From NCBI GenBank assembly GCA_003233055.1, contig QIKP01000015.1, forward strand, positions 1 to 64,000: a stretch of 64,000 nucleotides of DNA, written 5' to 3'. Shown here piece by piece: positions 52,747 to 59,077 of this stretch. The position numbers and the translations under genes were made by a program. The notes under the pieces were generated by a model that searched no databases, was not told where the DNA came from, and worked only from the letters and a program-made list of their open reading frames with translations. The first letter of the stretch is position 1, and each line of letters starts with the position of its first letter. This DNA is from Planctomycetaceae bacterium (lineage in GTDB: Bacteria; Planctomycetota; Planctomycetia; Pirellulales; Lacipirellulaceae).

Positions 52747-53148
52747 ATGTACCGTGTCACTCGTGAAATTGACTTTTGCTACGGCCACCGCCTCCTCAAC
52801 TACGAGGGGAAGTGCAAGCACCTGCATGGGCATAATGGAAAGGCCATCATCACGATCGAGTCACCCCGCCTCGACAACCGGGGCATGGTGCTTGATTTCT
52901 CCGACATCAAACAGGTCGTTTCCACTTGGATCGACGAAAATCTCGATCATCGGATGATTCTTTGTCGGGAGGACCCGGTGGTCCCTCTGCTTCAGGAAAT
53001 GGGCGAACCCCTCTACTTGATGGACGAAAATCCGACGGCGGAGAGTATCGCCCGAGTTATCTTTGAAATAACCAAGGAGGCCGGTTTTCCGATCGTCGAA
53101 GCCCGCCTTTGGGAAACCTCCAAGTGCTTTGCGACTTATGTGGAGTAG
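52747..53148 (+). CDS. 6-carboxytetrahydropterin synthase (QueD family)
   Basis: A 133-residue protein of the QueD/PTPS-like family. Zinc-binding histidines lie in CYGHRLL and KHLHGHNG; the catalytic cysteine is in GKCKHLH; the aspartate/glutamate segment is MVLDFSDIKQ, and DENPTAES and WETSKCFATY complete the signature. QueD acts in queuosine biosynthesis from dihydroneopterin triphosphate; eukaryote-type PTPS activity in biopterin synthesis cannot be excluded. No other queuosine gene adjoins. Confidence 0.9.
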   Translation: MYRVTREIDFCYGHRLLNYEGKCKHLHGHNGKAIITIESPRLDNRGMVLDFSDIKQVVSTWIDENLDHRMILCREDPVVPLLQEMGEPLYLMDENPTAESIARVIFEITKEAGFPIVEARLWETSKCFATYVE

Positions 53149-53365: not shown

Positions 53366-55072
53366 GTGTCGAAGATCGCATCGTTTTCTGAATGGCTCCT
53401 ACGGTCACCACTACTTTGGGGTGGCATGGCCTGCATGTTGGTGTACGAACTACTGAATCGGCAGTGGGTCCAAAGCCCTCTCTTGGAGCGCTATCTGCTC
53501 GGGCACCCGATCGAGGGAGCCACGGCCTGCCTCTTCTTCATCGCCATCGCGGCGCTGACGATCCGGGCACTTAGCCTCGCGCCTCAGTTCCTAGCCTTAG
53601 ACCGCCAGCTACTCGAACCGGCTCCTTTTGGTGGGCAGCCGGTCGAAGATGCCTCTCGACTTCTGGAGCAGCTCGAAAGTGCGCCACCCCTTTATCGTCA
53701 CTCCTATTTGGTCGATCGCCTTACCGGCGCGATCGATTACGTCCGCCGCAAGGACTCCTCCGAGACGCTCGAGAAGCATCTCCGTCATCTCGAAGAGGTC
53801 GACCTCGATCGGATGTCCTCTGGCTACGCGCTCACCAAAGTCATTGTTTGGGCGGTTCCCAGCTTGGGTTTCTTGGGTACCGTGGTCGGCATCGCTGAAG
53901 CGATCGGTCACTTGTCGTTCGAAGGCGATACGATTGTCCAGTCGCTCAAGCAGGTCATTGGTCCCCTTTCGTTTGCTTTCGACACCACCACGTTGTCACT
54001 CGCCCTGCTCTTCCCCATCATGTTCGCTTGGTACGCCGTCGAGAAAGTCGAAACCAGGCTCCTCCGACGTGTGGACGAGCGAACCGATGAAGAGCTGATC
54101 GGTCGGTTCTTTCAATACGGATCGTCCAATGATCCGCAGGTAGCCGCTGTAAGGCGGATGTCGGAGCAGGTGGTCCGAACGGTCGAAGCGATGTCGACTC
54201 GCCAGGCCCAATTGCTGGGCGACACCATCCAGGAGAGCCATAGCCATTGGACCGACCTCACCAAGGCGACTGGCAAGCTGCTAGATGAGTCGCTCCGATC
54301 GTCGCTGAAAGAGAGCCTCGAAAAACATGCCGAATCACTCAACCAGGGAACCGAGCGCCAAATCGACCTACTGAACCGGGGCATTCAGCAAAACGTCAAT
54401 GCGATCGAAAACGGCGTGGTCAATCGATTGTCGATGATCGACGATATTTTCGCTAAGCAAGTGCGTGAGGTGGAGCAACTCGTCACGAAACAAGTCGACG
54501 TGCTGGGGTTGTCGATCCAGTCGCAGTCGGAGCAGGCGCAGCAAGGAGCTGCGGACCTCGTCTCTCGGCTTCGCGACGGCTTGGAACGGATGGCCGAACT
54601 GTTAGTCGAAGCGCTTCAACAACATGGGGCGACGCTGACTCAAAGCGAGGAGGAATTTGCCCGGGAAAATCGACGTCACTTCTCGGAAGTCGAGACAGCG
54701 CTTGGCGAGTCGATGGTTCTGGCCGCGGATCGTCAGGAAAAATTGGTTCACCAAAGCGAACGTCTTCTGTCCGAAATGCAGGAAGCCCTGTTGACTTCCG
54801 CTGGCGCCACGGTCGAACAGCAGCAGCAGCTTGTTAGGCAGGGGGATATCCTTTTGCAAGTCGTCGATGCGACCGGACAAGTGAAGCAGCTGGAAGAGAC
54901 GCTGAATCAAAACCTTTCGTCGCTCGGCCGGGTGCATAATTTTGAAGAAACGTTGCTGAGCCTCTCGGCCGCCATCCAGTTGCTCAGTGCGCGGGTCGGC
55001 CGAGAGACCGCGCCCGCACCGATCGATATCCAGTCGCCCTCCACCTCTTCTTCTTCTAGTCAAGCCGCATGA
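53366..55072 (+). CDS. MotA/TolQ/ExbB-like proton-channel protein with long coiled-coil tail
   Basis: A 568-residue inner-membrane protein. Two N-terminal helices (LLWGGMACMLVYELL and EGATACLFFIAIAALTIRAL) come before a cytoplasmic stretch, and then a second pair: VIVWAVPSLGFLGTVVGIAEA (with the LGTVxG motif of ExbB/TolQ) and LSFAFDTTTLSLALLFPIMFAW, in which the FDTTTLSLALLFP segment fits the proton-pathway threonine helix of the family. After the channel comes a ~280-residue predicted coiled coil rich in Gln and Glu, much longer than in ExbB (244 aa). GTG start, AAGGAG/AAAGGAAG upstream. Next gene overlaps by four bases (ATGA). Likely part of a proton-driven complex with the two following proteins. 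Confidence 0.85.
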   Translation: MSKIASFSEWLLRSPLLWGGMACMLVYELLNRQWVQSPLLERYLLGHPIEGATACLFFIAIAALTIRALSLAPQFLALDRQLLEPAPFGGQPVEDASRLLEQLESAPPLYRHSYLVDRLTGAIDYVRRKDSSETLEKHLRHLEEVDLDRMSSGYALTKVIVWAVPSLGFLGTVVGIAEAIGHLSFEGDTIVQSLKQVIGPLSFAFDTTTLSLALLFPIMFAWYAVEKVETRLLRRVDERTDEELIGRFFQYGSSNDPQVAAVRRMSEQVVRTVEAMSTRQAQLLGDTIQESHSHWTDLTKATGKLLDESLRSSLKESLEKHAESLNQGTERQIDLLNRGIQQNVNAIENGVVNRLSMIDDIFAKQVREVEQLVTKQVDVLGLSIQSQSEQAQQGAADLVSRLRDGLERMAELLVEALQQHGATLTQSEEEFARENRRHFSEVETALGESMVLAADRQEKLVHQSERLLSEMQEALLTSAGATVEQQQQLVRQGDILLQVVDATGQVKQLEETLNQNLSSLGRVHNFEETLLSLSAAIQLLSARVGRETAPAPIDIQSPSTSSSSSQAA

Positions 55073-56925
55073 GCCGCGCTCGAGCTCAAAACAACAAGGC
55101 TGCCGCCACACTTTTTCCCTTTCTTGCTGTGCTCCTGAGCACGATGGGGGTATTGGTGGTGCTGCTCGTGGCGATGGCGAGCGTCCAGGTCGATCAGGCG
55201 AAGAAGAAACAGGAAGAGGATGCGGACCGTCACCGGCAGGCCTCCGACGCGCCGGAGCAGCAGCGGCTTCGAAAGGAGCTAGCGCACTTCCAAGGAGAAA
55301 TCGCCCAGCTCGATTCGATGCGTCTCGAGGAACGCAATGCACTCCGCGATGCTCAGTTGCGAACCAGCCATATCGAAGAGAACATTCGCCGATGGCAAGA
55401 TCGGCTCGACTCGCTCCGGTTCGCAATCTCCGAATTGACGCAGCTCAATGGCGATCACACCGACGATCGCGAACAGGCCAAGCAACGCCTTGCCGATTTG
55501 CAAGAAAAAATCGTGGCCGCTCAATCGCAAGTAGCGGACCTGAAGGAAGCGGCTGCGGAGAAACCCGAAGCGTACGCCATCCTCCCCTACGACGGGCCAA
55601 ACGGAACCAAGCGACGGCCCATCTACATTGAGTGCCTCCGCGACCGGGTGGTGATCCAGCCCGAGGGAATCGAACTATTTGCGGCGGACTTTCATCCCGG
55701 ACTTGGCGCCGGCAATCCGCTCGCCGCCGCGCTGCGCGCGGCAAGAGAATACTACCAGGCTGAGGGGCGCAGTTCCTACGAAGAGGCCTATCCGCTCATT
55801 CTTGTAAGGCCCGAAGGGATCGGCAGCTACCGAGCCGTGCTCGAGGCGATCCATTCATGGGATTCGCCTTTTGGCTACGAAATGGTAGGAGAGGATTGGG
55901 AACTCGACTACGGAGCGGCCAATCCAGAAGTGACGTTGGAGATCGCCACGGCGGTCGACAATTCCCGCAGGCGTCAAGCGAAGTTGGCAACGGCTGCCCC
56001 TGCTACGTTTGCGGGTGGGAGCCAAGATGCGTTCCAAACGCAAAGTGGACTGCTCGAAACGGTGCGATCGGGGGCACCGTTAGGGGGCGGATTCACTGCC
56101 ACCGGTGCGGGGGGAAATCGTGGCGGGCAGAGGAGTGGAAATGTGGGTCACGGAAGCGGGGCACCGACTCCTGATGACCGGCTAGCGGCCGCGCTAAAGG
56201 TGGCTACCGGTAGCGAACGAGGTGCTGGGGCTGCCGGAGTCGCTGGGGAGGAGAATTTTTCGGAGAGCCAACAAGCGGGGCTCGGCGTCGGAAGTCAGGG
56301 CCTCGCCATGGAGGAGGGGGAAGGTTCCCAGGGGCCGCATGACGGTGACTCCGAGAGCAGAAAAGAGAGAACGGGGACGGAGAGCGAAGCGGATCAACCT
56401 TCCGATGCTTTGGCTCAGGTTGGGGTAGGCAACGCCGGCGGTACCAGCCCGCCTTCCAGGGCGAACGCGAGCGGAGACGCCTCTTCGCAAGCGTCTGGTC
56501 AAAGCGGGCAGGGGTCCGCAGCCGCCAACGCCTCGGCAAGCAACGCCAGCGGAGGCGAATCGTCCAGTGGAACAGGAAACCAAAGCTCATCGCCAGGCAA
56601 CGGACTCGGGGTCCAGCGCCCGATTCAAGTCGTGGTGCGTCCTGATCGCTTGATCGTGTTACAAGATTCGGTGCGCCCGTCGGTCGAGGCGATTCACGGA
56701 AGGACCGTGCTGCTTGAAAAGAAAGGGGGTCGGGCGTCGGAGCAATTTTCCGTGGCTATTCGAGAACATATCGAGGATTGGGGCATTGCTGGTGCTGGTT
56801 CCTACTGGAAGCCCGTTTTGGTCCTCAACGTTGCCCCCGGCGGAGAGAAACTGGCCCAAGAATTGTCCATCGCGCTGCGGGCAAGTGGCATCGAGGTTCG
56901 CTTCCCCAGTACCACTCGCCGCTAA
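55069..56925 (+). CDS. ExbD-like single-helix protein lacking the proton-carrying aspartate
   Basis: A 618-residue protein with one membrane helix near the N-terminus (FPFLAVLLSTMGVLVVLLVA, residues 16-35), a coiled coil (about 42-165), a folded domain (about 165-310: YAILPYDGPNGTKRRPIYIE, ILVRPEGIGSYRAVLEAI, EVTLEIATAVDN), a long low-complexity Gly/Ser/Ala/Glu linker (about 335-517) and a C-terminal domain (VVVRPDRLIVLQDSV, WKPVLVLNVAPGGE). The arrangement of helix and periplasmic domain is that of ExbD/TolR/MotB stator subunits, but the position of the essential aspartate is alanine (A20). It overlaps the ExbB-like gene and precedes the third gene by 18 bp. Confidence 0.78.
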   Translation: MSRARAQNNKAAATLFPFLAVLLSTMGVLVVLLVAMASVQVDQAKKKQEEDADRHRQASDAPEQQRLRKELAHFQGEIAQLDSMRLEERNALRDAQLRTSHIEENIRRWQDRLDSLRFAISELTQLNGDHTDDREQAKQRLADLQEKIVAAQSQVADLKEAAAEKPEAYAILPYDGPNGTKRRPIYIECLRDRVVIQPEGIELFAADFHPGLGAGNPLAAALRAAREYYQAEGRSSYEEAYPLILVRPEGIGSYRAVLEAIHSWDSPFGYEMVGEDWELDYGAANPEVTLEIATAVDNSRRRQAKLATAAPATFAGGSQDAFQTQSGLLETVRSGAPLGGGFTATGAGGNRGGQRSGNVGHGSGAPTPDDRLAAALKVATGSERGAGAAGVAGEENFSESQQAGLGVGSQGLAMEEGEGSQGPHDGDSESRKERTGTESEADQPSDALAQVGVGNAGGTSPPSRANASGDASSQASGQSGQGSAAANASASNASGGESSSGTGNQSSSPGNGLGVQRPIQVVVRPDRLIVLQDSVRPSVEAIHGRTVLLEKKGGRASEQFSVAIREHIEDWGIAGAGSYWKPVLVLNVAPGGEKLAQELSIALRASGIEVRFPSTTRR

Positions 56926-56943
56926 CCACCGAGGCATCATTCC

Positions 56944-57960
56944 ATGGCTCGACGCCATCGCAACGACGGAAAAGACGACCTGCCTGGGCAGGATTCGTTT
57001 GTCGACATCATCGCCAACATGGTCGGGATTCTCATCCTATTGGTGGTGATCGTCGGTATTGGAGCTGCAGCGACGACGGTTGTCGAAACGTCGCCGGCCG
57101 AAGGTGTCGCTTCGCCCCTCGTCACTTCGAGCGAAGTCAAGGCGGCCCGTCTTGAGGCGATCGCCGCCGCCCGCGACACGATCGAACTCAACCGAAAAGC
57201 AGTTCGGCTGGCCGCCAATGCCGAGGAACTTGATTTCGAACGAGAGAAATTGGCAACTTACGTCACCGCCGCCAAGGAAGAGCTCGACCGTCGTCGCGAC
57301 GCACTCGCACAGGACGATCAGCAGCAGTACGACCTACGTGTTGCGCTGATTTCTGCCGAGGAGACGCTGGACGACCTGACTCGCAAACAGATGGCACTGG
57401 TGAGCGCACCGCTCGAATCGGAGCAACTCAAAAACGTGCCAACGCCCCTTGCAAGGCAAGTGGAGGGGGATGAAGTGGCACTCCGCGTGGAATCAGGTCG
57501 GGTCGCCATCGTGCCGGTCGACGCGTTCGTCTCTCAATTGGAGAGTCGGGGCGCCAACGAAATTAGGCGTTTAGAATCGCGGCGCGACCCGTTGGGGCGA
57601 ATTGGCCCGATGGGCGGATTCCAAATGCTCTACACCTTGGTGTCGCGCCAGGCGGCCAGACCGAACGGTGTGGTCGGGACGATGCACTATCTGGTGGCAG
57701 AAATTCGCCCGACCCGCACGCAAAGAGGGGAACCGGTCGACGAGGCGGTCGGCCCCGATTCCCTGCTTATGGAAGAACTCGATCGAAGGGATCCCCGAAG
57801 GACGTCGGTCACGCTTTGGACCTATCCTGACAGTTTTGAAGAGGTGACCCAACTCCGACAGGCCCTCTACGCGCGCGGCTTTGCCACCGCGATTCGCCCT
57901 CTGGCTAAAGGAACCCATATCGGGCTTTCCCCGTTCGGGTCCAAGTCGCGTGCTCAATAG
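56944..57960 (+). CDS. ExbD-like single-helix protein with conserved aspartate
   Basis: A 338-residue protein with a single N-terminal helix FVDIIANMVGILILLVVIVG. The F-V-D at its start (D21) matches the F-I-D of ExbD, whose aspartate carries the proton. A coiled coil (about 60-130) is followed by a domain of unknown fold (RVAIVPVDAFVSQLE, GGFQMLYTLVSR, HYLVAEIRPTR and SVTLWTYPDSFEEV...LRPLAKGTHIGL-like end). It resembles the second half of the middle protein of the cluster in its alternation of strands. Third gene of the presumed operon. No peptidoglycan-binding OmpA motif was seen. Confidence 0.8.
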   Translation: MARRHRNDGKDDLPGQDSFVDIIANMVGILILLVVIVGIGAAATTVVETSPAEGVASPLVTSSEVKAARLEAIAAARDTIELNRKAVRLAANAEELDFEREKLATYVTAAKEELDRRRDALAQDDQQQYDLRVALISAEETLDDLTRKQMALVSAPLESEQLKNVPTPLARQVEGDEVALRVESGRVAIVPVDAFVSQLESRGANEIRRLESRRDPLGRIGPMGGFQMLYTLVSRQAARPNGVVGTMHYLVAEIRPTRTQRGEPVDEAVGPDSLLMEELDRRDPRRTSVTLWTYPDSFEEVTQLRQALYARGFATAIRPLAKGTHIGLSPFGSKSRAQ

Positions 57961-58033: not shown

Positions 58034-58657
58034 CTACTTCTGGCGTCGTGTTTCGCTTGCTGGTGGGGCGCCGTCTGTTTTGTCCAGAAGGGTTCTTAGC
58101 ACGAGGTAGGTTGCGCCGAGAACCAAGAGAGAATCGGCGATATTAAAATTGGGCCAGCGATACTGAGGTCCCCATTGCAGTAGTATCCAGTCCCGCACCG
58201 CGTAAGCCGATTCGCCCCGTCGGGCCGGGTCGAAGAACCACGTTTCTCCATGGAGACCAAGTCGGTCGTAGAGATTCCCCAGGATCCCCCCCATCACGCA
58301 CCCGAGCGCGAAGGTGAGCCCAAGGTCGGCGGCAGCGGCGTAGCGAAAGAGCCAGACCGGCAGCGCGATGGCTGCGATCAGGCTGAACGCCGCAAAGACC
58401 CAAACGAACCCTTGCCCCATCCCGAAGAGCGCCCCTTCGTTGAGGCTGAGCTGGAAACCAGCGTAGTCGGGCAACACCCACCAGATGTCGCCTCGCCGGA
58501 GGTCTTCTTGTAAAAACACCCACCCTTTGGAGACAAGATCGGCAACGCAACCGATGATCGCCGTCACCACAAAGAGGGCGATTCGATTGCGCGGGTAAGG
58601 TGCGAAATTCGCCGAATCACCCTGGCTGGCGTCGGGGCTCTTAGGTACATGGGCCAT
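58034..58657 (-). CDS. lspA: Lipoprotein signal peptidase
   Basis: A 207-residue four-helix inner-membrane aspartic peptidase that cleaves prolipoprotein signal peptides. The catalytic pair is in GGILGNLYDRLGL and NIADSLLVLG; LSLNEGALFG is the conserved NxGxxF segment. The loop between the catalytic helices is longer than in E. coli (164 aa), as often in planctomycetes. GGAAGG lies before the start. Confidence 0.93.
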   Translation of the reverse strand: MAHVPKSPDASQGDSANFAPYPRNRIALFVVTAIIGCVADLVSKGWVFLQEDLRRGDIWWVLPDYAGFQLSLNEGALFGMGQGFVWVFAAFSLIAAIALPVWLFRYAAAADLGLTFALGCVMGGILGNLYDRLGLHGETWFFDPARRGESAYAVRDWILLQWGPQYRWPNFNIADSLLVLGATYLVLRTLLDKTDGAPPASETRRQK

Positions 58658-58708: not shown

Positions 58709-59077
58709 TCACTCGCTTTCTTGTAGCTCAGCGCAGGCAATGCAAACAGGCGTGTAGGGGACAGCGTTGAGGCGAGTCTTTGGAATCACCTTGCCGCATT
58801 GTAGGCACTTACCAAATTCAGCGCCGTCGATGCGTCCTAACGCTTCGTCGATTCGAGAAAGTGTGCCTTCCTCGGTCGCGACCACTCCCAGCGTAAACTC
58901 CTGCTCAAAGTTGTCGCTGCCCAGCTCTGCCATGTGGATCGGCATACTGGAGGTGTCGTTTCCTTCCATGCCGGAGTGCCGAAGGGCCACTTCAGACATC
59001 GCGGTTACGTCACCTTGCAGGCGAGCTCGCATTAGCAGGAGTCGGTCTTTGTACACGTTCATGTCCGCTTTTTTCAT
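58709..59077 (-). CDS. DksA/TraR-family zinc-finger protein
   Basis: A 122-residue protein with a helical N-terminal part (MNVYKDRLLLMRARLQGDV) and the C-terminal zinc finger CLQCGKVIPKTRL...VCIACAE (four cysteines, CxxC-17-CxxC) of the DksA/TraR family, which bind RNA polymerase in the secondary channel. The coiled-coil is shorter than in DksA; the acidic tip seems to be DAL/RIDG. Probable regulator of transcription. AGGGA precedes the start. The 302-bp stretch to the thrC start holds nothing recognisable except ACCGGTACCGGT. Confidence 0.87.
   Translation of the reverse strand: MKKADMNVYKDRLLLMRARLQGDVTAMSEVALRHSGMEGNDTSSMPIHMAELGSDNFEQEFTLGVVATEEGTLSRIDEALGRIDGAEFGKCLQCGKVIPKTRLNAVPYTPVCIACAELQESE

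Follow-up and report, generated by a model that had tools for sequence, protein, structure and literature searches.

The closest described relatives of the system discussed here are the 5:2 motors ExbBD and TolQR (PF01618 plus PF02472), in which a ring of MotA_ExbB-family subunits is combined with a partner protein that has one N-terminal helix with an F-x-D motif, followed by a periplasmic domain. In the 5:2 motors described to date, each of the two axle helices bears one Asp, and a full turn is modelled as ten 36-degree steps driven by ten ions; in a review of these motors the 10-fold rotational symmetry is called almost certainly universal, with one predicted step per ion (PMC9389320). The two B-subunits of known stators were said to be identical in an earlier note on this DNA, which is too strong a statement, since heterologous pairs have been described (PMC9389320, PMC12204202). 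In the AglR-AglQ-AglS system of Myxococcus gliding, one ring gene goes with two TolR-like partners, both described with a conserved Asp (PMC9389320). Two different helix proteins beside one ring gene are also found in the TPH-vWA pairs with TolQ-like rings and, within the PVC group, in heterologous tolR-like pairs (Mol Biol Evol 2025, PMC12204202); the Asp is kept in both members of the TPH-vWA pairs, and the section consulted describes neither its loss nor a coupling to ring class. Zorya ZorAB, finally, has a ring protein with a long coiled-coil tail and forms a 5:2 complex with a ZorB dimer.

The locus considered here lies in a window of 64,000 nucleotides (the whole stretch of DNA that was analysed) from a Pirellulales-like genome, and is a three-gene operon in the order A, B2, B3, with the ATG of B2 overlapping the TGA of A (ATGA):

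53366..55072, + strand: A subunit, MotA/TolQ/ExbB-like ring protein with a long C-terminal coiled coil (568 aa, GTG start)
55069..56925, + strand: B2, the middle protein (ORF2, 618 aa)
56944..57960, + strand: B3, the third protein (ORF3, 338 aa)

The match of A to PF01618 (E 1e-8, 35.4 bits, above the Pfam gathering score of 22.9) places it among the MotA/TolQ/ExbB ring proteins, and weak matches to TolQ, ExbB and ZorA were also obtained. Its coiled-coil tail is reminiscent of ZorAB, and its best sequence match in the PDB is 8vvn (E 6e-5). Membership of Zorya was considered and rejected, as A scores 20 bits with the NCBIfam ZorA model against a cut-off of 500, and the PADLOC matches are weak. 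The likeness to ExbBD and TolQR lies in the ring family and in the single N-terminal helix of the partners. Here, however, the partners are two different proteins, only one of which has the Asp, the coiled coils are long and TM3 of the ring contains FDTT. Furthermore, PF02472 (ExbD/TolR, Pfam) matches neither B2 nor B3, whereas it does match seven other ExbD places in the same genome. Ordinary Pfam ExbD genes also occur there as adjacent pairs (C6:17467-18398, L337 and L338; C3:113477-114489, L335 and L339). The A-B2-B3 order is held in most Pirellulales loci, and a relative of B3 is present in 138 of the 146 genomes of the order. Genes named by eye as queD-like, lspA-like and dksA-like flank the operon (window positions 52747-53148, 58034-58657 and 58709-59077). 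Together with a queC-like gene, these conserved neighbours recur next to the operon in 10-16 of about 80 loci; they resemble local synteny rather than functional partners.

In AlphaFold models, B2 and B3 share an architecture: after one N-terminal transmembrane helix come a coiled coil and periplasmic domains. The following elements can be distinguished:

55114..55182, + strand: B2 N-terminal transmembrane helix, residues 16-38 (FPFLAVLLSTMGVLVVLLVAMAS)
55126..55128, + strand: B2 Ala20 (codon gct), by alignment the site of the proton-carrying Asp of ExbD and B3
55618..55995, + strand: B2 first periplasmic domain, residues 184-309 (YIEC...VVIQPEG...LVRPEG), AlphaFold pLDDT mostly above 80, homologous to the B2 of the paralogous cassette II described below
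56044..56592, + strand: B2 linker of low complexity, rich in Gly/Ser/Ala, residues 326-508, predicted to be disordered (pLDDT below 50)
56605..56901, + strand: B2 C-terminal alpha/beta domain, residues 513-611 (AlphaFold model)
56992..57066, + strand: B3 transmembrane helix, residues 17-41 (DSFVDIIANMVGILILLVVIVGIGA)
57004..57006, + strand: B3 Asp21 (codon gac), invariant in orthologues
57469..57927, + strand: B3 periplasmic alpha/beta domain, residues 176-328 (AlphaFold, mean pLDDT 87.6)

The fold comparisons are middling for both proteins: the C-terminal domain of B2 scores Z 6.6 with ExbD 8pek and Z 6.1 with TolR 5by4, values that unrelated folds tie, and the B3 domain scores Z 6.1 with 5by4, with unrelated folds scoring alike. 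A Foldseek search of the PDB with B2 and B3 gave no match with E below 0.001, and when B3 was compared with PDB entries by sequence, the matches were for the most part coiled coils.

The helix region of B2 reads TLFPFLAVLLSTMGVLVVLLV and that of B3 GQDSFVDIIANMVGILILLVV. The earlier note had placed an Asp at position 21 of the third protein against an Ala at position 20 of the middle one, and both the codons and the alignment bear this out: when the two families are aligned profile to profile (hhalign), A20 of B2 sits against D21 of B3 without a gap. A helix-only profile score favours this register over every other shift and over all 5000 column shuffles, so that a chance resemblance or a misalignment of the helices is ruled out. 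B3 thus has what is typical of an ExbD/TolR-type pore helix, namely an N-terminal helix with a conserved Asp near its start; B2 has kept the helix and mostly lacks the Asp. The alignment over many species that had been proposed as a check of the generality of this asymmetry was carried out on distinct orthologues from Pirellulales and other Planctomycetia, with Gemmataceae left out. Every one of the 160 B3 orthologues of the class Planctomycetia in which the motif could be read has Asp at position 21. Of the 147 B2 orthologues, 133 have a non-acidic residue at position 20 (Ala 126, Ser 3, Gly 2, Thr 2), the other 14 an acidic one (Asp 13, Glu 1). The opposite pattern, with middle proteins usually acidic or third proteins without the Asp, was not found. 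The absence of the acid from B2, anticipated as constant, is therefore usual rather than constant, and it can be switched with the ring, as described below. The helix residues are among the best conserved columns of B2, and Ala20 itself is at least 90 percent conserved in a 59-row alignment, amid F16, P17, F18, L19, V21, L22, C24, T25 and G27; the length of B2 varies widely between loci.

The same asymmetry is found in a paralogous cassette (cassette II, as distinct from cassette I, to which the operon belongs), where a short B2 of about 270-290 residues has a helix with FPFLS, that is Ser at the position of interest, and the helix of B3 contains LLDT, with Asp. The B2 proteins of the two cassettes are homologous (hhalign E 3.9e-28). 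Cassette II was seen at loci L288-L291, L297-L300, L329-L332 and L352-L363, in Planctomycetia and some other planctomycete families. These sequence comparisons support a conserved asymmetry between the two ExbD-like helices, which extends over Pirellulales and other Planctomycetia and recurs in the paralogous cassette. Most other lineages of Planctomycetota that were sampled have Asp in both partners, including L295/L374, where B2 also has an EC...QPxG...VRPxG domain; the lineage L292/L368 has Ser in B2. Because these distant planctomycetes mostly have Asp in both, the acid of B2 looks ancestral and its loss derived, by parsimony on a small sample of outgroups. In other planctomycetes (L294, L302), two adjacent proteins with SFLDA...C..GA, both with the Asp, resemble by sequence the TPH-vWA pairs of PMC12204202.

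The exceptions among the B2 proteins were found to follow the class of the ring protein. Two classes can be told apart at two positions of A:

53888..53890, + strand: Gly175 in TM2 of A; beta-class A has His here
53981..53983, + strand: Asp206 in TM3 of A, part of the FDTT motif; beta-class A has Asn here

Alpha-class A, the usual one and that of the window, has GFLGTVxGI in TM2 and mostly AFDTT in TM3, beta-class A GFLGTVxHF and AFNTT. Acidic B2 was not found with alpha-class A in cassette I (0 cases); in the 15 genomes or loci with beta-class A it was found 13 times (Asp 12, Glu 1), the exceptions being L069 with Ser and L253 with Ala. Conversely, the A subunit of the 14 acidic B2 proteins, wherever one was found, belongs to the beta clade. 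One family holds both states, with beta and Asp in L049/L066, and alpha and Ala in L054/L075. Beta A is often encoded far from B2-B3; no B pair was found beside the orphan beta A genes that were looked at, and a second, beta-type A was absent from all five alpha genomes searched (G000, G013, G015, G021, G062). All beta A proteins group in a single clade (100 SH-aLRT), but their B pairs are scattered over many branches, so that the simplest reading of these sequences is that the ring was replaced, and that B2 changed with it. In a tree of B2 plus B3 with the residue-20 site masked, a quick one (LG+G4, SH-aLRT support only) with long branches, approximately eight independent changes of A class were counted; B2 turned acidic in 6-7 of them and the opposite occurred in none (sign test p 0.0156, Treekit independent pairs).

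That residue 20 of B2 evolves with the ring argues for a position of the B2 helix inside the pore, like that of an ExbD helix. The chief rival would place a homodimer of B3 inside the pore, which would supply two Asp in the manner of ExbD, and B2 outside the ring as a docked output arm similar to TonB or TolA. The Ton complex provides a precedent, with one TonB helix outside ExbB and two ExbD helices inside (PMC12215075), and the length of B2, its disordered linker and its C-terminal domain, as well as its usual lack of the acid, would suit such an arm. However, the B2 helix is in register with that of B3, its distant relatives carry Asp, and an acid returns to it with a change of ring class. 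An SHLS motif is the mark of TolA/TonB-type transducers (PMC12204202), and orthologue alignments of the B2 helix contain neither a conserved His nor such a motif. The missing His motif and the Asp of the distant relatives weigh against the outside arrangement, to which we give a rather small chance. The two readings differ in that two equivalent axle Asp are present if the axle is a B3 homodimer and absent if it consists of B2 and B3.

The drift of a dispensable site would be another way to account for the variability of B2. Ala, Ser, Gly, Thr, Asp and Glu are all found at position 20, as expected if the second Asp were no longer needed in this family, but such relaxed constraint is hard to reconcile with the strong conservation of Ala20 and with changes to acid that follow the ring class, and is considered very improbable.

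With B2 placed in the pore beside B3, the change may amount to a relocation of the acid and not to a simple loss, because Asp206 of the alpha rings is Asn where B2 is acidic. Asp206, which in the alignment lies two residues ahead of the counterpart of the TM3 Thr of TolQ, could have replaced the B2 Asp as an ion-binding group, in which case the number of protons per turn would not simply be halved. Asp206 is usual with non-acidic B2, and where B2 is acidic in distant lineages the ring has N, H, E or I at this position, with one exception (L293, Asp in both). Five alpha rings (L045, L056, L058, L060, L084), however, have Asn or Ala at 206 with B2 still non-acidic, so that a strict one-for-one substitution is ruled out, and L297/L300 of cassette II combine Asn with Ser. 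Moreover, the beta clade is split from alpha by a long branch, so that position 206 is not singled out, and one new acid per ring subunit amounts to five, not one. Relocation, which is compatible with an axle made of B2 and B3, is regarded as rather unlikely.

Gemmataceae show what becomes of the pair when the ring is lost. At 12 loci the periplasmic domains of B2 and B3 persist and no A gene is found beside them; a search of six Gemmataceae genomes yielded no cassette-I A (0/6), and only a distant A next to a different gene. The Asp of B3 is gone, being replaced by Gly in the two helices that can still be aligned (L274, L285), while the other helices no longer align; the helix motif of B2 has gone as well. 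From these sequences, the ring would seem to hold both helices in shape. The joint decay of the motifs also bears on the possibility that A forms two complexes, one with B2 homodimers and one with B3 homodimers, the former being non-conducting or regulatory. AglR could form a channel with either AglQ or AglS, and whether the latter two mix is unsettled (PMC9389320). But with one A gene per B pair and a tight linkage of the three genes a fixed stoichiometry is simpler, and where A is lost both helices decay together, so that we hold two separate complexes to be improbable. In Gemmataceae a separate ring gene (TM2 GFIGTVEGI, TM3 AFDSTLLAL) was observed to adjoin a single B-like protein (L322-L327, L349, L350), the helix of which reads GEDSFVAVVVTKLTGALLFILL in all but L325, with Ala at the position of the Asp and a Lys further on; the domain after the helix looks Ig-like by eye. 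By its sequence, this is possibly another motor without an axle acid.

Our preferred reading, which we consider somewhat better than an even bet, is that the operon encodes a proton-driven relative of the 5:2 family with an A5 ring and a two-helix axle of B2 and B3, in which Asp21 of B3 would be the sole axle carboxylate in the alpha class. Five A subunits would form the ring, with the transmembrane helices of B2 and B3 in its pore and their coiled coils and periplasmic domains carrying the movement outward. With an alpha-type ring (Gly175 in TM2, Asp206 in TM3), B3 would run the protonation cycle through the only carboxylate of the axle helices and B2 would act as a structural partner, with Asp206 perhaps taking part of the proton path on the B2 side. 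Where a beta-type A, with His in TM2 and Asn in TM3, has replaced the alpha ring, B2 usually becomes acidic again. The sequences themselves show the operon, the conserved asymmetry, the helices in matching register, the repeated link between residue 20 of B2 and ring class, and the loss of both helix motifs along with the ring; we infer the heterodimer, the rotation, the use of protons and the role of Asp206, and take the five-around-two stoichiometry from the family. The more specific proposal of a heterodimeric axle with a single proton-carrying carboxylate, which would go through a 5-fold rather than a 10-fold cycle (5 protons per turn, 72-degree steps) and which ring swaps would have switched back to two carboxylates several times, is put forward tentatively, the odds being somewhat against it.

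Heterologous TolR-like pairs were already known, and what appears to be new is a conserved and switchable loss of the Asp. A literature search with coverage of few subscription journals and preprints gave no report of a conserved Asp loss in one partner or of a link to ring class, and nothing on MotB D32N heterodimers; ExbB, ExbD, TolQ and TolR are not mentioned in the main text of the paper on essential genes of Planctopirus limnophila. If the proposal is correct, the 10-fold rule would be broken by a motor that is conserved and yet has one carboxylate on its axle, and the need for two proton sites could be tested. The ring swaps provide natural matched pairs, that is an Ala/Asp axle with an alpha ring versus an Asp/Asp axle with a beta ring, and the family would bear on the question raised for AglQ and AglS (PMC9389320), whether one ring can contain two different B proteins.
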